Positions 11,132-19,025 of a DNA stretch of 64,000 nt are shown here, in pieces. The translations under genes and the position numbers were made by a program. Numbering within the stretch: position 1 is the stretch's first letter; the number at the start of each line of letters is the position of its first letter. Under the pieces are notes generated by a model that was not told where the DNA came from, searched no databases, and saw nothing but the letters and a program-made list of their open reading frames with translations. Origin of the DNA: Prochlorococcus marinus subsp. marinus str. CCMP1375 (GTDB lineage Bacteria > Cyanobacteriota > Cyanobacteriia > PCC-6307 > Cyanobiaceae); assembly GCF_000007925.1 (NCBI RefSeq), contig NC_005042.1, positions 1,364,001 to 1,428,000 on the forward strand, in the 5' to 3' direction.

Positions 11132-11578
11132 ATGGCAGTTATTAATAGTCCTAATCAAGATCAATCAAAAGGTCCTTCTCACTGTGGGAGCAAGCCCAAA
11201 AAGATTGCTATAGGCATAGCACCACTTGGGTTCATATCAATTGGCATAGTCCCAATGGGAATTGTTTCTATAGGCATAGTTCCAATGTGAGTAGTATCTC
11301 TTGGGCTGGTGGCAATGGGAGTAGTAAACGCCTCCATTGTTGGTATGGGAATATTCTCTGCAGGGATAACAACTATGGGGATAAAAGTATGGAGTCCAAT
11401 CGAGGTGGGGTTCCCCCAATCAACTATTGAGAATACACACCATTCATCTCCGAAAAACATTTACGCCTATCCCTCTAAATCGAAAGCAGAGGAAGAAGCT
11501 AAAAAGTTAGGATGTTTAGGGGTTCACAAAATGGGTCAATTATGGATGCCTTGTGCAACCCATAGACCTAATCAATAA
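11132..11578 (+). pseudogene. Five-residue-repeat plus DUF3721 fusion, interrupted by an in-frame TGA
   Basis: Reading from ATG 11132 gives MAVINSPNQDQSKG, then repeats of the type [ILM]-G-[IVF]-x-x until TGA at 11288-11290 (codon 53). The same frame continues through more repeats (LGLVAMGVVNASIVGMGIF) and a complete DUF3721 domain (AEEEAKKLGCLGVHKMG, LWMPC) to 11578. The TGA falls where the repeat needs Gly, so a single GGA to TGA change explains it. Either the gene is dead, or a 52-residue fragment and a downstream restart at 11309 (ATG) are made. Confidence 0.75.
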
Positions 11579-11610
11579 TTATCTAAATCTCCATTAATTC
11601 ACAAATAAAT

Positions 11611-11865
11611 TTGCCTTCTGATTCTCAAATAACAAACTCATACCAAGGGAATCAACTTGGCGATAGCATGCCCAAATTAATTTCAATTGGGATAGCACCT
11701 CGTGGAATTATTGCCATTGGATTAGTTCCCATGGGAATTGTCTCTATAGGCGCTGTCTCAATGGGACTTTTTACGATCGGAGTTGTTGGCATGGGGTTAA
11801 TAAATGCTTGTATAGTAGGTTGTGGGATGATTGTTTACGGGGTTAAAATAATGAGTCTTAACTGA
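11611..11865 (+). CDS. Five-residue glycine-repeat membrane protein, 84 aa
   Basis: From a TTG start the protein has about 26 polar residues, then a continuous run of [IML]-G-x-x-x repeats (IGIAPRGIIAIGLVPMG and onward) to its end at IMSLN. It is a paralogue of the repeat part of the interrupted gene at 11132 and lacks DUF3721. The spacing from the start to the first repeat matches that gene, which supports TTG over the internal ATG at 11668. Regular Gly every fifth residue suggests a solenoid or packed hydrophobic structure. Confidence 0.65.
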   Translation: MPSDSQITNSYQGNQLGDSMPKLISIGIAPRGIIAIGLVPMGIVSIGAVSMGLFTIGVVGMGLINACIVGCGMIVYGVKIMSLN

Positions 11866-13713: not shown

Positions 13714-14508
13714 TCAACTCTTATTTTTTCTAGGCAAAATTGCCAATCCAGCAACACATAGAACACTGATAAGAGGGCCTGGAGATAAGTTAAATTGAAA
13801 TGCCAGAAAAAAGCCTAATATTGAAATGCATAACCCAAAGATTGCAGATCGGATCATCGCAACCCACAAGCTTGGCGCTTGAATTAATCCCCATAAAGTT
13901 GGTGTAGAAAGTAAAGCAACAACAAGAATTACTCCAACTGCAGACATTGAGCTGACAATGACAAGAGCAGTTGTAAAGCCAAGAGCTAAGTTTAAAGAAT
14001 CCACTTTTATTCCACTAGCTCTAGCACCTTCTGGGTCTAATCCAACATAAACAAGTTTGTCGTAACCAAAAATCATCAGACAAGCAAACACAAAAAATGC
14101 CAAAAAAGTTCTGATAAGATCTCCAAAATTTGCTGTCAATAAATCACCAAATAGAACAGCTTCTAAATCAATTCTGATGCCAAGAAGAGGTATAAGGAGA
14201 ACGCCAAGGCCAAGTGATCCAGCAAGAATAATATTCATAACAGCTTCATAATTTTGACTTCGTTTATTAGTCCAATGTTCTGCAAGAAGTGATCCCAACA
14301 AACCGCTGAAAACTCCTCCAATTGAAGGATGAACACCTAGCGCTAGGGCTAATGCCAAGCCTGGCAAAACACAATGGGAAATTAAATTGACTTGTAATAA
14401 TCGCTTATGTGTAATTAGAATAGTTCCCATGGCTGGACAAAGGAGTCCTGAAAATAGTGTTATAACAAGGGGGATTATCCACCAATTTGTATTTACAAAA
14501 GACATCAA
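13714..14508 (-). CDS. znuB: Zinc ABC transporter permease ZnuB
   Basis: The 264-residue product is an ABC-3 family integral membrane permease with about eight helices; typical stretches are CPAMGTILITHKRLLQVNLI, SHCVLPGLALALALG and MSAVGVILVVALLSTPTLWG. It forms the membrane channel for zinc taken from ZnuA and driven by ZnuC. The gene is separated from znuC (same strand) by the oppositely oriented zur gene, so a znuC-znuB transcript would cover zur in antisense. Metal specificity rests on the Zur and ZnuA context. Confidence 0.93.
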   Translation of the reverse strand: MMSFVNTNWWIIPLVITLFSGLLCPAMGTILITHKRLLQVNLISHCVLPGLALALALGVHPSIGGVFSGLLGSLLAEHWTNKRSQNYEAVMNIILAGSLGLGVLLIPLLGIRIDLEAVLFGDLLTANFGDLIRTFLAFFVFACLMIFGYDKLVYVGLDPEGARASGIKVDSLNLALGFTTALVIVSSMSAVGVILVVALLSTPTLWGLIQAPSLWVAMIRSAIFGLCISILGFFLAFQFNLSPGPLISVLCVAGLAILPRKNKS

Positions 14509-14543
14509 GCAAATGATTCAGTATTGTTAGAAAGAGGGGTCAA

Positions 14544-14960
14544 ATGAAGATCTTGCCAATGGATAGAAGTACACCTGAAATTAGTGAACGGCAAAAGCAA
14601 TTGCTTCAAGAACTCAAAAAATGTAATGATGAATTGAGTGGTCAAGAGTTGCATAGACAATTGCACCAAAGTGAGAATGCCATGGGGTTGGCAACTGTAT
14701 ATAGAAATTTGCAAGTACTTGTAAAACAAGGGTTGGTTCGTTCTAGGCATCTGCCAACAGGTGAAGTTCTCTATACACCAGTTGAGAGAGATATTCATCA
14801 TTTAACTTGTGTTAATTGTGGAGAAACTACACGCTTGGAAGGATGCCCTGTAAACACAATGAATGTACCCAAGAAAACCTCTGAAAAATTCGAACTCTTG
14901 TTCCATACTCTGGAGTTCTTTGGTCTTTGCCAAAATTGCCTTCAGAAAAAAGAGTCTTGA
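14544..14960 (+). CDS. zur: Fur-family zinc uptake regulator Zur
   Basis: The 138-residue protein has the Fur fold order: winged helix with ATVYRNLQVLVKQGLV (about residues 50-65), the hinge motif HHLTCVNCGE with the first Cys pair (CVNC) and the second pair CQNC at the C-terminus for structural zinc. Assignment to Zur rather than Fur or PerR follows from its place inside the znu locus and the Zur-like box at 15712. A near-consensus Shine-Dalgarno (AGAGGGG) precedes the ATG. It has only 35 nt from the divergent znuB start, and its 3' end stops 16 nt before the end of znuC. Confidence 0.92.
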   Translation: MKILPMDRSTPEISERQKQLLQELKKCNDELSGQELHRQLHQSENAMGLATVYRNLQVLVKQGLVRSRHLPTGEVLYTPVERDIHHLTCVNCGETTRLEGCPVNTMNVPKKTSEKFELLFHTLEFFGLCQNCLQKKES

Positions 14961-14976
14961 TGAAATTTGAAGACTA

Positions 14977-15678
14977 TTAAGCACAGCAATTATTACTCAT
15001 ACAATTAATAGAATCTAGTTTTTCTTGTACTTCTTGAGGCCTACCCGAAGCTAAAACAGTCTTGTCCAGAGCGACAACCTTGTCATAAGCATCTAAAGAC
15101 TTACCCCAATCATGACTACTAACAAAAAGTGTTAAACCAGCATCGGCTAATTGACGAATGATAATTAAAAACTGTTCTCTAGTAGGCGGATCTAATGAAG
15201 AGCATGGCTCATCAAGTAGAAATATTGAGGCAGGTCTCATCAAAGTTTTTGCAAGTAATGCTTTTTGTTGTTGACCACCTGATAAAGAATCAAGTCTCCT
15301 TTTTGATAGCTCAGATATTCCAACTCTTTGGAGTGCTGCTTCTAATTCACAACATGCTGATCTGCAATGATTTACTCGCCCTAAAGAAACCAATCCTTCA
15401 ACAGTAATAGGAAAATTCCAATTTAAAAGTCCTCTTTGTGGCATTAAAGCAATTTGATCTAACTCTCCCATTAAGGGTTTACCATCAACATTGACCTGGC
15501 CTTTTCTTGGCTTAGCTTGTCCCTGCAGCAGACGTAATAACGTTGATTTGCCAGCACCATTTGGACCAACAAGTGCTGTCAAAGTTCCTGGAGCGAGCTG
15601 TATTGAGACATCATTCAAAACAGGTTTACTTTCAGCTGAATAGGAATATGTCAAATTTTCAGCAAGCAAACTAGCCAT
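14977..15678 (-). CDS. znuC: Zinc ABC transporter ATPase ZnuC
   Basis: A 233-residue ABC ATPase with Walker A GPNGAGKST (near residue 37), Q-loop region, signature LSGGQQQKALLAK, Walker B IFLLDEP and the H-loop SSHDW. It powers zinc import through ZnuB. It is divergent from znuA, with the Zur box in the 83-bp gap, so both directions are probably repressed together when zinc is plentiful. The C-terminus ends in Cys-rich CMSNNCCA, which could bind metal. Confidence 0.93.
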   Translation of the reverse strand: MASLLAENLTYSYSAESKPVLNDVSIQLAPGTLTALVGPNGAGKSTLLRLLQGQAKPRKGQVNVDGKPLMGELDQIALMPQRGLLNWNFPITVEGLVSLGRVNHCRSACCELEAALQRVGISELSKRRLDSLSGGQQQKALLAKTLMRPASIFLLDEPCSSLDPPTREQFLIIIRQLADAGLTLFVSSHDWGKSLDAYDKVVALDKTVLASGRPQEVQEKLDSINCMSNNCCA

Positions 15679-15711: not shown

Positions 15712-15726
15712 TGATAACGATTATCA
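15712..15726. promoter_or_regulatory. Zur-type operator between znuC and znuA
   Basis: TGATAA-CGA-TTATCA is a perfect 6-bp inverted repeat with a 3-bp centre and fits the AT-rich cyanobacterial Zur/Fur box pattern. It lies 33 bp from the znuC start and 35 bp from the chosen znuA start, an ideal place to repress both. Confidence 0.8.
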
Positions 15727-15761
15727 TTATAGTATATAAAATACAAGTAATTTGGAGCATA

Positions 15762-17264
15762 ATGTTAAATCGCTTCACCAGTTCAGAGCAAAGCAAATCA
15801 TCCATTAGCAAAACAATCATTAACACCTCTATTTTAGCTGGTGCTGTTTTTTTGTCTGGAATTTCAGAGGGAGTACAAGCTAATTCCAAGCCATTAGTTG
15901 CCGTAGAACCAATTGTCTGTGACTTGCTTACTGCAATCGCTCTGCCTTCAAATACAGTTACTTGCTTAATAGATAGAAAACAAGATGTTCATGACTTCCA
16001 AATTAATCCTAAGCAAGCTCAAATTCTTAGCAATGCAGGGCAAGTCTTTACTCTTGGGCAAGAGATGACTCCCGCAATGAAAAAATGGCTGGATAATCCC
16101 ATAACGGTTGTTGTCGGTGTAAGTGCAATAGAAATTGACGATCACGATGACCATGCTGATCATTCATCTGCTAAACATGATGACCACGACGATCATGACG
16201 ACCACGATGATCATTCATCTGCTAAACATGATGACCATGGAGACGAAGCCTTTGAATGGGCTGGTGTCTTTGAACTTCTACGAGGAACATACCAATGGTC
16301 TTTTGCAAAAGTCGATGGAGGCTATGCGGATCCTGCAATGAAAATGGTCATTCTGGAATCTGGGGATATTGAAGCATCAGAAGAGCTTGCTGAAGAATTA
16401 TTAGAGTCCAAAAATTCAGAAGTTAAACGCAATAATGACAAACTTGTTGCACAAGAAAAAGCCTATGTTCTTAGATTTAATGAGAGAAAAGACAGCACAA
16501 CATTCAATGTAGAAATCAAAAAAGCTGGTAAATATGCATTCTTTACTGAGCATATGCCTTTTGAGTTTGAAGCCGATGAACATTTCTTTAAAGATGTTTC
16601 AGGCGATGATATTGAACCGATAGCTCAAGTTCCAGATGAAGGCGGTGATCATCATCACCATGATCATGGGAAACTAGATCCACATGTTTGGCATGACCCT
16701 CATAACATCATCAAGATAGGGAATGTCATCTCTAAAAATCTCAACAAGAAAATTTCATTCTTTGATAAAGAAACTAAAAAAGTTTTAAAAGAAAGAACAC
16801 AATCTGTTAATTCTATTTTAGAAGGTTTAGATCAATGGACTCAAAGACAAGTAGCCACAATCCCTTCTAATCAAAGGACGCTAGTTTCTAAGCATAAAGC
16901 TATGGAATACTACGGGGATGCATTTGGTTTGAAAACTATTAGCTTATTAGATTTTCTTGGTCATTCATCGAGTCTTAGGCCTCAAAACATTACAAAAGTA
17001 ATCACAGAACTTAGAGGAGAGAATGTAAAAGTATTGTTCTCTGAGCAAAAACCACCTTCTAAGTTGATGAGAAACTTAAGCAGACAAACCTCTACCCCTA
17101 TAGCAAAACAACAGATTTTTGTTGATGGTTTAATGCCAACAGGAAACACGATTTCTGTAGCTGTTCATAACACTTGTACTATCGTCAACTCTTTGGGTGG
17201 TTCCTGCAATAAGAAAGCAGGTAATCAACTCGTAAATAGATGGGATACCTTAACTAAACGTTAA
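15762..17264 (+). CDS. znuA: Zinc-binding periplasmic protein ZnuA with an inserted extra domain
   Basis: I place the start at ATG 15762, preceded by GGAG; the longer frame from TTG 15711 would begin inside the operator. The 500-residue protein has a signal segment near residues 20-40, the ZnuA fold (LVAVEPIVCDLL, QDVHDFQINPKQAQIL, KLDPHVWHDP, LVSKHKAMEYYGDAFG, LFSEQKPPS) and two Asp/His-rich tracts near residues 127-160 and 297-305. It is about 200 residues longer than standard ZnuA because a domain (about 164-275, FEWAGVFELLRGTY to FFTEHMPFEF) sits between the His tracts. The same domain occurs in the GTPase at 17643. It captures zinc for ZnuBC. Confidence 0.93.
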   Translation: MLNRFTSSEQSKSSISKTIINTSILAGAVFLSGISEGVQANSKPLVAVEPIVCDLLTAIALPSNTVTCLIDRKQDVHDFQINPKQAQILSNAGQVFTLGQEMTPAMKKWLDNPITVVVGVSAIEIDDHDDHADHSSAKHDDHDDHDDHDDHSSAKHDDHGDEAFEWAGVFELLRGTYQWSFAKVDGGYADPAMKMVILESGDIEASEELAEELLESKNSEVKRNNDKLVAQEKAYVLRFNERKDSTTFNVEIKKAGKYAFFTEHMPFEFEADEHFFKDVSGDDIEPIAQVPDEGGDHHHHDHGKLDPHVWHDPHNIIKIGNVISKNLNKKISFFDKETKKVLKERTQSVNSILEGLDQWTQRQVATIPSNQRTLVSKHKAMEYYGDAFGLKTISLLDFLGHSSSLRPQNITKVITELRGENVKVLFSEQKPPSKLMRNLSRQTSTPIAKQQIFVDGLMPTGNTISVAVHNTCTIVNSLGGSCNKKAGNQLVNRWDTLTKR

Positions 17265-17307: not shown

Positions 17308-17646
17308 ATGACATCATCTGAATTTAAAGGTATCAAAACTTATAAAAAATACTGGGAAGATCAAGCAAGTTTTATGGATCAATTGCCCTGGAACCAGAAA
17401 AAAATCTTAAAGTTAACTCTCTCAAATGATTTTGAGGAAAATATTGAAGAACTTAAATTTTCTAATCACTCTCTTGCAAGAGAAAATGGACAATTAACTT
17501 TACGCTTAAAAGTTCCATACAACTACTCTCAGATCGATGATTTTGAGTTAAAGGCTCTAGGACTCTTGGGTATAGATAGAAGTTGCTTAATCGATATGAG
17601 CTTGACCAATTCTAATTGTACTAAAGACTTAACAAAAACAAAATGA
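17308..17646 (+). CDS. Unknown protein of the zinc cluster, 112 aa
   Basis: A soluble, charged protein (MTSSEFKGIKTYKKYWEDQA at the start, several aromatic residues, one Cys near the end). It lies between znuA and the G3E GTPase gene and overlaps the latter by 4 nt (ATGA), so it is very likely translated and coupled to it. No family is recognised; function in zinc handling is inferred only from position. Confidence 0.6.
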   Translation: MTSSEFKGIKTYKKYWEDQASFMDQLPWNQKKILKLTLSNDFEENIEELKFSNHSLARENGQLTLRLKVPYNYSQIDDFELKALGLLGIDRSCLIDMSLTNSNCTKDLTKTK

Positions 17647-19025
17647 CTATCGGACAAAAAGTACCTGTCACCATCCTTACGGGCTTCCTCGGCTCTGGGA
17701 AAACGACTCTCCTTAATCGAATTCTGAGTGAAGAACACGGTAAACGAATCGCTGTAATCGAAAACGAATATGGTGAAGTAGGTATTGATCAGGGTCTGGT
17801 CATTAATGCTGACGAAGAAGTCTTTGAAATGTCCAACGGTTGCATTTGTTGCACCGTTCGTGGAGACCTGATTCGCGTATTGGGCAATCTCATGAAGCGA
17901 CGAGATAAATTCGACTATGTGTTGGTTGAGACAACAGGACTTGCTGATCCTGGCCCTGTTGCTCAGACATTTTTTATGGATGACGAAATCCGTAATGAAT
18001 TTTCTCTTGATGGCATTGTTACTCTCGTTGATGCGGCTCATATTGATCAGCAACTCGGTCGCAGTGATGAAAGTTCTGAGCAGGTTGCCTTCGCAGATGT
18101 TCTTGTCCTAAATAAAACGGACTTAGTTTCTGATGAATCTCTTGATATTCTTGAATCACGGCTACGAGATATGAATCGTATGGCTCGTGTTGTGCGTAGT
18201 AAGCAAGCGGAGGTGTCTATTGATACTGTGCTAAACCTTAGTGCTTTTGATCTAGATCAGGTGTTAAAGCGTCGCCCCACTTTTCTTGAGCCAGAATATC
18301 CATTCGAGTGGACAGGTGTCTTTTCTCTTGAGAAAGGTCGTTATGAACTTAGCCTTGAAGAAGGTCCTGATCCCACTATGTCACTCGTAGTTCTGGGAGA
18401 TCAGGGGATTGACGAAGCGGCTCTTAATGCTGGTGCGGAGTCTTGCGTAAGACTTTACGCTGACTCTGCGAAACTTCTTCATCCGGGAAGCACAGTCCCA
18501 ATTGAAAAACATGTCAGTCTTCAGCTTCAGTCTAATGGGCGTAAGTCTTTCTTTTTAGAACTAGATAACCCTACTCATATTGGGCTGTTCACCCAGCACA
18601 CAGCAGAGGAATTTGATATCAAAGTATCCCGAGTTGATACTTTAATTTCTACAATTGAAAGTAATGGCAAAATCGAGGCTTTGGTCCAACCTGAAACTGA
18701 GCGGACTTGGGTAGCAGAGCATGAACATGATGATGAAGTGGGCTCAATTGCTATCGAGCGACTAGGTGATGTCGATCCAGAAAAACTCAATAAGTGGTTG
18801 AGTCGACTCCTATCAGAAAAAGGTGTAGATATATTTAGGACAAAAGGATTTATAAGTTATGCGGGCGAATCCAGGCGAATGGTTTTTCAAGGGGTTCACA
18901 TGCTCTTCACTGCTCAGCCAGATAAAGAGTGGGGAAGTGAACCTCGCCGCAATCAATTGGTGTTTATCGGCAGAAATCTTGATGAAGAAGAAATGTCTCG
19001 AGAGTTTGATAAATGCCTGGTGTAG
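17643..19025 (+). CDS. G3E-family GTPase (COG0523), putative zinc chaperone
   Basis: Residues 8-200 form the GTPase: Walker A GFLGSGKTT, ENEYGEVGID, the metal-binding GCICCTVRGDL (CxCC), ETTGLADP and NKTD. Residues about 220-325 hold the extra domain shared with ZnuA (FEWTGVFSLEKGRYELSL to FTQHTAEEFD). The CobW C-terminal domain follows from about 358 (IERLGDVDPEKLNKWLSRLL, RTKGFISYAG). COG0523 proteins deliver metals to client enzymes using GTP; zinc is inferred from neighbours. The DNA is visibly richer in GC and CGT/GGT codons than flanking genes. It overlaps the WD40 gene by 13 nt. Confidence 0.9.
   Translation: MTIGQKVPVTILTGFLGSGKTTLLNRILSEEHGKRIAVIENEYGEVGIDQGLVINADEEVFEMSNGCICCTVRGDLIRVLGNLMKRRDKFDYVLVETTGLADPGPVAQTFFMDDEIRNEFSLDGIVTLVDAAHIDQQLGRSDESSEQVAFADVLVLNKTDLVSDESLDILESRLRDMNRMARVVRSKQAEVSIDTVLNLSAFDLDQVLKRRPTFLEPEYPFEWTGVFSLEKGRYELSLEEGPDPTMSLVVLGDQGIDEAALNAGAESCVRLYADSAKLLHPGSTVPIEKHVSLQLQSNGRKSFFLELDNPTHIGLFTQHTAEEFDIKVSRVDTLISTIESNGKIEALVQPETERTWVAEHEHDDEVGSIAIERLGDVDPEKLNKWLSRLLSEKGVDIFRTKGFISYAGESRRMVFQGVHMLFTAQPDKEWGSEPRRNQLVFIGRNLDEEEMSREFDKCLV

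Follow-up and report, generated by a model that had tools for sequence, protein, structure and literature searches.

Some operons are split by a gene of opposite orientation. In the noncontiguous operon menE-menC-MW1733-ytkD-MW1731 of Staphylococcus aureus, the mRNA of the embedded gene is, over its whole length, antisense to an untranslated segment within the operon RNA, and cotranscription was demonstrated (PMC7154746). In the excludon, as outlined in the same source, an mRNA doubles as an antisense RNA to a neighbour of opposite role, so that the two are expressed exclusively, and the overlap is usually a long 5' or 3' one with a single neighbour (PMC7154746). The closest described zinc locus is that of Synechococcus WH8102 (zur, synw2401; znuABC, synw0969-0971), where znuA and znuC diverge from one Zur box, znuB comes after znuC in the same orientation, the three genes are all under repression by Zur, and zur lies elsewhere; the study treats znuBC as one divergent unit (PMC9337993). 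In that study, the zur RNA of WH8102 was zinc-independent and the zur promoter was not bound by Zur; znuB was increased in a zur mutant but changed only 1.4-fold with zinc (P = 0.83) (PMC9337993).

Here we analyzed a stretch of 64,000 nucleotides (the window) from Prochlorococcus marinus subsp. marinus str. CCMP1375 (NC_005042.1, positions 1,364,001 to 1,428,000), in which zur is located between znuC and znuB. The sequence evidence favours a zinc-import locus under Zur control whose two arms, znuA-COG0523 and znuC-znuB, diverge, with zur reversed inside the znuC-znuB arm. No paper on a znuC-zur-znuB transcript was found in the literature text that was searched. The layout itself may be drawn in earlier work (Barnett 2012; Voigt 2014), and we therefore do not present it as unpublished.

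Results

The zur gene lies in reverse between znuC and znuB

The original prediction placed zur on the plus strand between znuB and znuC on the minus strand, with gaps of 35 and 16 bp. The longest open reading frames give exactly these gaps and Pfam matches agree with the gene assignments (Table 1), so that the layout is confirmed, with the starts refined. The longest znuB frame (13714-14508, minus strand) opens with TTG and an ATG lies one codon downstream at 14505; counted from this ATG, the znuB-zur gap is 38 bp. Because an ATG at the position of 14544 was present in only 5 of 33 loci (window included), translation of zur probably starts at the ATG at 14559, in which case the gap would be 53 bp. 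A search for NCBIfam equivalogs among the locus proteins found none at the cut-off, and the names znuB, zur and znuC therefore stand for family plus context. The whole genome (one contig, 1,751,080 bases) has just two FUR-family genes and two ABC-3 permeases, which makes znuB, zur, znuC and znuA likely partners.

Table 1. Features of the zinc locus, in window coordinates.
Feature	Position	Strand	Basis
znuB, ABC-3 family permease	13714..14505	(-)	Pfam ABC-3 3.1e-41; ATG start at 14505 kept in relatives
zur promoter -35, AAGACA, overlaps znuB start codon (predicted)	14499..14504	(+)	35/35 loci
Predicted internal untranslated stretch of znuC-znuB RNA	14506..14976	(-)	would be antisense to all of zur and the zur promoter
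zur promoter -10, TATTGT (predicted)	14522..14527	(+)	TANNNT at this column in 35/35 loci
zur, FUR-family repressor	14544..14960 (longest ORF)	(+)	Pfam FUR 3.4e-18
znuC, ABC ATPase	14977..15678	(-)	Pfam ABC_tran 4.6e-29; best NCBIfam model AztA, under cut-off
Zur box TGATAACGATTATCA (predicted), between znuC and znuA	15712..15726	.	position and conservation
Candidate -10 of znuC, TATAAT, abuts Zur box	15726..15731	(-)	read by eye against the consensus; missed by -35/-10 scan
znuA, zinc-binding protein, divergent from znuC	15762..17264	(+)	Pfam ZnuA 1.5e-46
COG0523/CobW-type GTPase, downstream of znuA, same strand	17643..19025	(+)	Pfam cobW 2.2e-61, CobW_C 5.1e-27

Two further observations were made in the window. 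Residues 164-332 of znuA and residues 221-387 of the COG0523 GTPase share a stretch opening FEW-GVF-L--G-Y (25% identity over 183 columns, E 1e-6 in a single comparison), a pattern that would fit insertion of the same accessory domain into two zinc proteins, one periplasmic and the other cytoplasmic. Positions 11309-11865 hold small open reading frames with repeated MGI/IG motifs, such as IGIAPRGIIAIGLVPMGIVSIG; adjoining frames end alike in C-x-GAHKMG-x-WMPC and form a small tandem family.

Conservation of the gene order

We sought zur and znuB each in 201 genomes of the Prochlorococcus/Synechococcus family. Among the matches listed (at least 150 zur rows and 146 znuB rows), both genes were present in 107 genomes, and in 74 of these they were divergent neighbours, 37-118 bp apart from alignment end to alignment end. 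The order znuB(-) zur(+) znuC(-), hereafter the sandwich, was found in 75 of 110 fetched loci, that is, two genes of one strand split by a gene of the other; the remainder comprised 19 loci with contiguous znuC-znuB without zur, 1 with all genes on one strand and 15 with zur but no adjacent znuB. Since some of the 110 loci were chosen for zur-znuB adjacency, 75/110 is not a frequency, and the count over listed genomes is the fairer one. Among 61 named loci, the sandwich occurred in 20 of 24 Prochlorococcus/Synechococcus records of the family (L141-L164) and in none of 37 loci of other cyanobacteria (L165-L201).

In a ZnuB tree built from 95 rows, of which 74 were sandwich and 21 contiguous (row L091 left out), 5 state changes were required, at least 4 of them on starred branches. 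The sandwich appears in both deep halves of this tree, suggesting that the arrangement either is ancient in the Prochlorococcus/Synechococcus family or arose repeatedly, and that the contiguous state was gained or retained on several occasions. Because it was lost several times, the sandwich is not essential. Relatives with contiguous znuC-znuB keep the Zur box at znuC and have znuB directly after znuC. In several genomes a second znuC-znuB-znuA-COG0523 set, contiguous and of the Prochlorococcus type, accompanies or replaces the sandwich (L131-L137 versus L032-L069), and in L040, L067 and L079 zur has no znuB neighbour and a contiguous set lies elsewhere in the same genome.

A predicted Zur box lies at znuC and znuA but not at znuB

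The predicted Zur box, TGATAACGATTATCA, is the sole exact match to TGATAANNNTTATCA in the genome, and the reversed control also has one. Sites with up to one mismatch (13 versus 19 in the control) or up to two (267 forward versus 249) are likewise not enriched genome-wide, and the box in the window therefore rests on position and conservation, not on rarity. Of the 75 sandwich loci, 57 had a site with at most two mismatches upstream of znuC and 18 had none. The predicted site thus lies at the znuC/znuA transporter promoter, as in a Zur regulon.

Whether znuB has a Zur box of its own was a check proposed with the original prediction. None was found: the best site upstream of znuB in the window, considered for znuB or zur, had four mismatches and was rejected, and sites with at most two mismatches upstream of znuB occurred in 1 of 75 sandwich loci, about the chance rate (the 267 sites in the 1.75-Mb genome amount to about 0.035 per 230 nt). 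That sole case, L035, overlaps the znuB start codon and was taken as chance, although a degenerate operator may be present. With a box at znuC and none at znuB, the simplest route by which znuB could be Zur-controlled is RNA coming from znuC.

The znuB-zur gap contains a conserved, predicted zur promoter

Promoter motifs, synonymous constraint, codon-shuffled controls and terminators were examined in a set of 35 loci, the Prochlorococcus-like part of the 75 sandwich loci without L065 and L069. The znuB-zur gap carried GACA-N17-TANNNT on the plus strand in all 35 loci, compared with 37 of 3500 shuffled windows. Because the motif is kept with the same spacing in L040 and L067, whose zur has no znuB beside it, it belongs to the zur promoter, and the embedded gene thus has its own predicted promoter on the opposite strand. 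The -35 element covers the znuB ATG and second codon, an overlap found in 35/35 loci, and the Ser2 codon of znuB is TCT in all of them, TCT making up 252 of the 801 Ser codons of znuB.

Packing at both ends of zur is also tight in relatives. In GC-richer relatives the start codons of znuB and zur come as near as about 25-30 bp, and in several freshwater-like (GC-richer) loci the stops of zur and znuC overlap by 4 nt. These features bear on an alternative in which polymerases from znuC do read through to znuB but without any regulatory effect on zur. The overlap of the zur promoter with the znuB start codon and the end-to-end packing of zur and znuC interlock the genes, so that rearrangement would break one of them, and the order could be held for this reason. 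The invariant -35/ATG overlap, the fixed TCT codon, the 4-nt stop overlap and the repeated loss of the layout are all in keeping with it. However, interlocking accounts for the adjacency of zur and znuB and not for the position of znuC: in 75 of 76 three-gene clusters, znuC lies beyond zur on the same strand as znuB. We regard read-through without effect as a real possibility, though less likely than not.

The zur 5' leader and coding region were inspected as well. Most Prochlorococcus-like loci have a conserved AAGATCTTG (window 14547-14556) immediately upstream of the probable zur start codon. A conserved hairpin around AAGATCTT was considered and rejected, as RNAalifold gave no structure and the window leader was no better than shuffled sequences (z = 1.26). 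Synonymous constraint, sought in the 35 loci as a sign of an antisense element or a hidden promoter, showed no strong peak inside zur; the first ten zur alignment codons were constrained (ratio 2.17), and these are mostly leader.

Minus-strand starts and terminators between znuC and znuB

The main rival to read-through is a separate, Zur-independent start for znuB, located within zur or in the gap; the back side of the zur promoter, acting as a bidirectional promoter, may supply it. On such a reading ZnuB would be constitutive, only ZnuA and ZnuC would be zinc-regulated, and antisense RNA to zur would be short or incidental. Several results are consistent with it. A minus-strand TANNNT is found 5-49 nt before znuB in 19 of 35 loci, which makes a weak start possible; the hexamer mirroring the zur -10 fits xAxxxT in 19/35 (AATACT in the window); and the best-placed minus-strand TANNNT column, within zur, is filled in 20/35. 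Antisense starts are also frequent in Prochlorococcus MED4, with 363 internal antisense starts reported under N-replete growth (PMC5607370), and the contiguous znuB of WH8102 answered zinc weakly (PMC9337993). Against this, no minus-strand znuB promoter conserved in position like the zur promoter (35/35) was found in the 35 loci, and -35/-10 pairs scoring at least 9 of 12 preceded znuB in only 2 of 35 loci, below the codon-shuffled controls (22.8%). The one conserved motif of the gap is assigned to zur by L040 and L067. A separate start as the explanation for znuB expression, with the constitutive ZnuB that it implies, is rather unlikely in our judgement.

A start or a terminator between znuC and znuB would have spoken against the proposal that the two genes share an RNA. 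As for the start, the 35 loci yielded no positionally conserved minus-strand promoter, as described above. Terminator-like sites were counted in the same 35 loci with loose settings against dinucleotide-shuffled sequences (n = 105); a scan of all 75 loci was set aside because some gene ends were wrong (e.g. L061, L073, L088). Loose sites followed znuC in 0/35 loci (null 11/105), zur in 3/35 (null 7/105) and znuB in 14/35 (null 10/105), the last being an enrichment that covers under half of the loci; strict sites after znuB were found in 6/35 versus 1/105. Over the whole znuC-to-znuB stretch, sites were at the chance level (23/35 versus 72/105). The window itself had no terminator-like site in any of the four scanned stretches, and a separate scan of the window gave one, inside znuB. 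A search with the Rho model for a rho gene in 20 genomes, including that of the window, gave no match over the cut-off; the weak matches (about 23 bits, open reading frames of about 500 aa) resemble other ATPases. Cyanobacteria are named among bacteria natively without Rho (PMC5100998). The znuC-to-znuB interval thus yielded neither a positionally conserved minus-strand start nor terminators beyond chance in these 35 loci.

Discussion

The mechanism that we propose is as follows. When zinc falls, Zur would leave the box at znuC/znuA, and RNA polymerase starting at znuC would continue across zur in antisense as far as znuB; ZnuB would thereby be made together with ZnuC and ZnuA. Passing the zur promoter head-on, this read-through would lower zur, mainly by interference and perhaps also by RNA pairing. 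When zinc is present, znuC would be shut and zur freely expressed; the zur mRNA, likewise without a terminator, would run antisense into znuC.

The steps of this scheme differ in strength. Judging from the sequence comparisons, we hold, with moderate confidence, that read-through from znuC is the main source of znuB RNA. That its passage lowers zur expression is a more tentative suggestion. The latter is part of the former, and read-through without effect on zur overlaps with it in the same way, so the estimates are not to be added. Equally tentative is the view of the locus as a mutual-exclusion switch in cis, in which derepressed transporter transcription would silence its own repressor without an operator on zur. 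Such a switch may, again with some doubt, have been kept in Prochlorococcus and in freshwater Cyanobium-like lineages and dismantled where zur moved away.

The noncontiguous znuC-znuB operon of the original prediction thus gains support from sequence: no Zur box at znuB, no terminators beyond chance, no Rho, no znuB promoter conserved in position, and a layout that is kept. Its purely antisense mechanism, in which zur translation would be reduced, did not stand unchanged and needs head-on interference added, since the read-through polymerase would also cross the zur promoter, which makes transcriptional interference at least as probable as pairing of the antisense RNA.

Zinc is very scarce where Prochlorococcus lives, and its regulators are few. 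If the scheme is true, zur would come under zinc-dependent feedback by virtue of gene order alone. Lineages with the sandwich and lineages with contiguous genes offer a natural comparison that makes the role of the noncontiguous operon testable. Operon maps restricted to one strand are blind to such units; that of MED4, for example, joined same-strand neighbours only, and it therefore speaks neither for nor against read-through (PMC3898218). The binding protein of MED4 is PMM1032 (PMC9606707). By gene order, PMM1030 would be zur and PMM1029 znuB.

As in WH8102, znuA and znuC diverge here from a single predicted Zur box and znuB lies on the znuC strand; unlike in WH8102, where zur is elsewhere, zur here separates the two (PMC9337993). 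This comparison leads to the prediction that zur would be zinc-dependent only in sandwich strains; it also shows that znuB need not respond strongly. With the excludon the locus would share an mRNA that doubles as antisense to a gene of opposite role, and it would differ in that the antisense covers a whole internal gene, the regulator of the operon itself (PMC7154746). With the S. aureus operon it shares the interruption by an opposite-strand gene, whose entire mRNA would likewise be complementary to an untranslated segment within the operon RNA; cotranscription, the defining feature, was demonstrated there and is predicted here (PMC7154746). The znuC-zur-znuB locus is thus likely a variant of the noncontiguous operon rather than a proven member. 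What would be new, compared with S. aureus, is an embedded gene that encodes the repressor of its own operon, with a promoter that lies within the start of the next operon gene.
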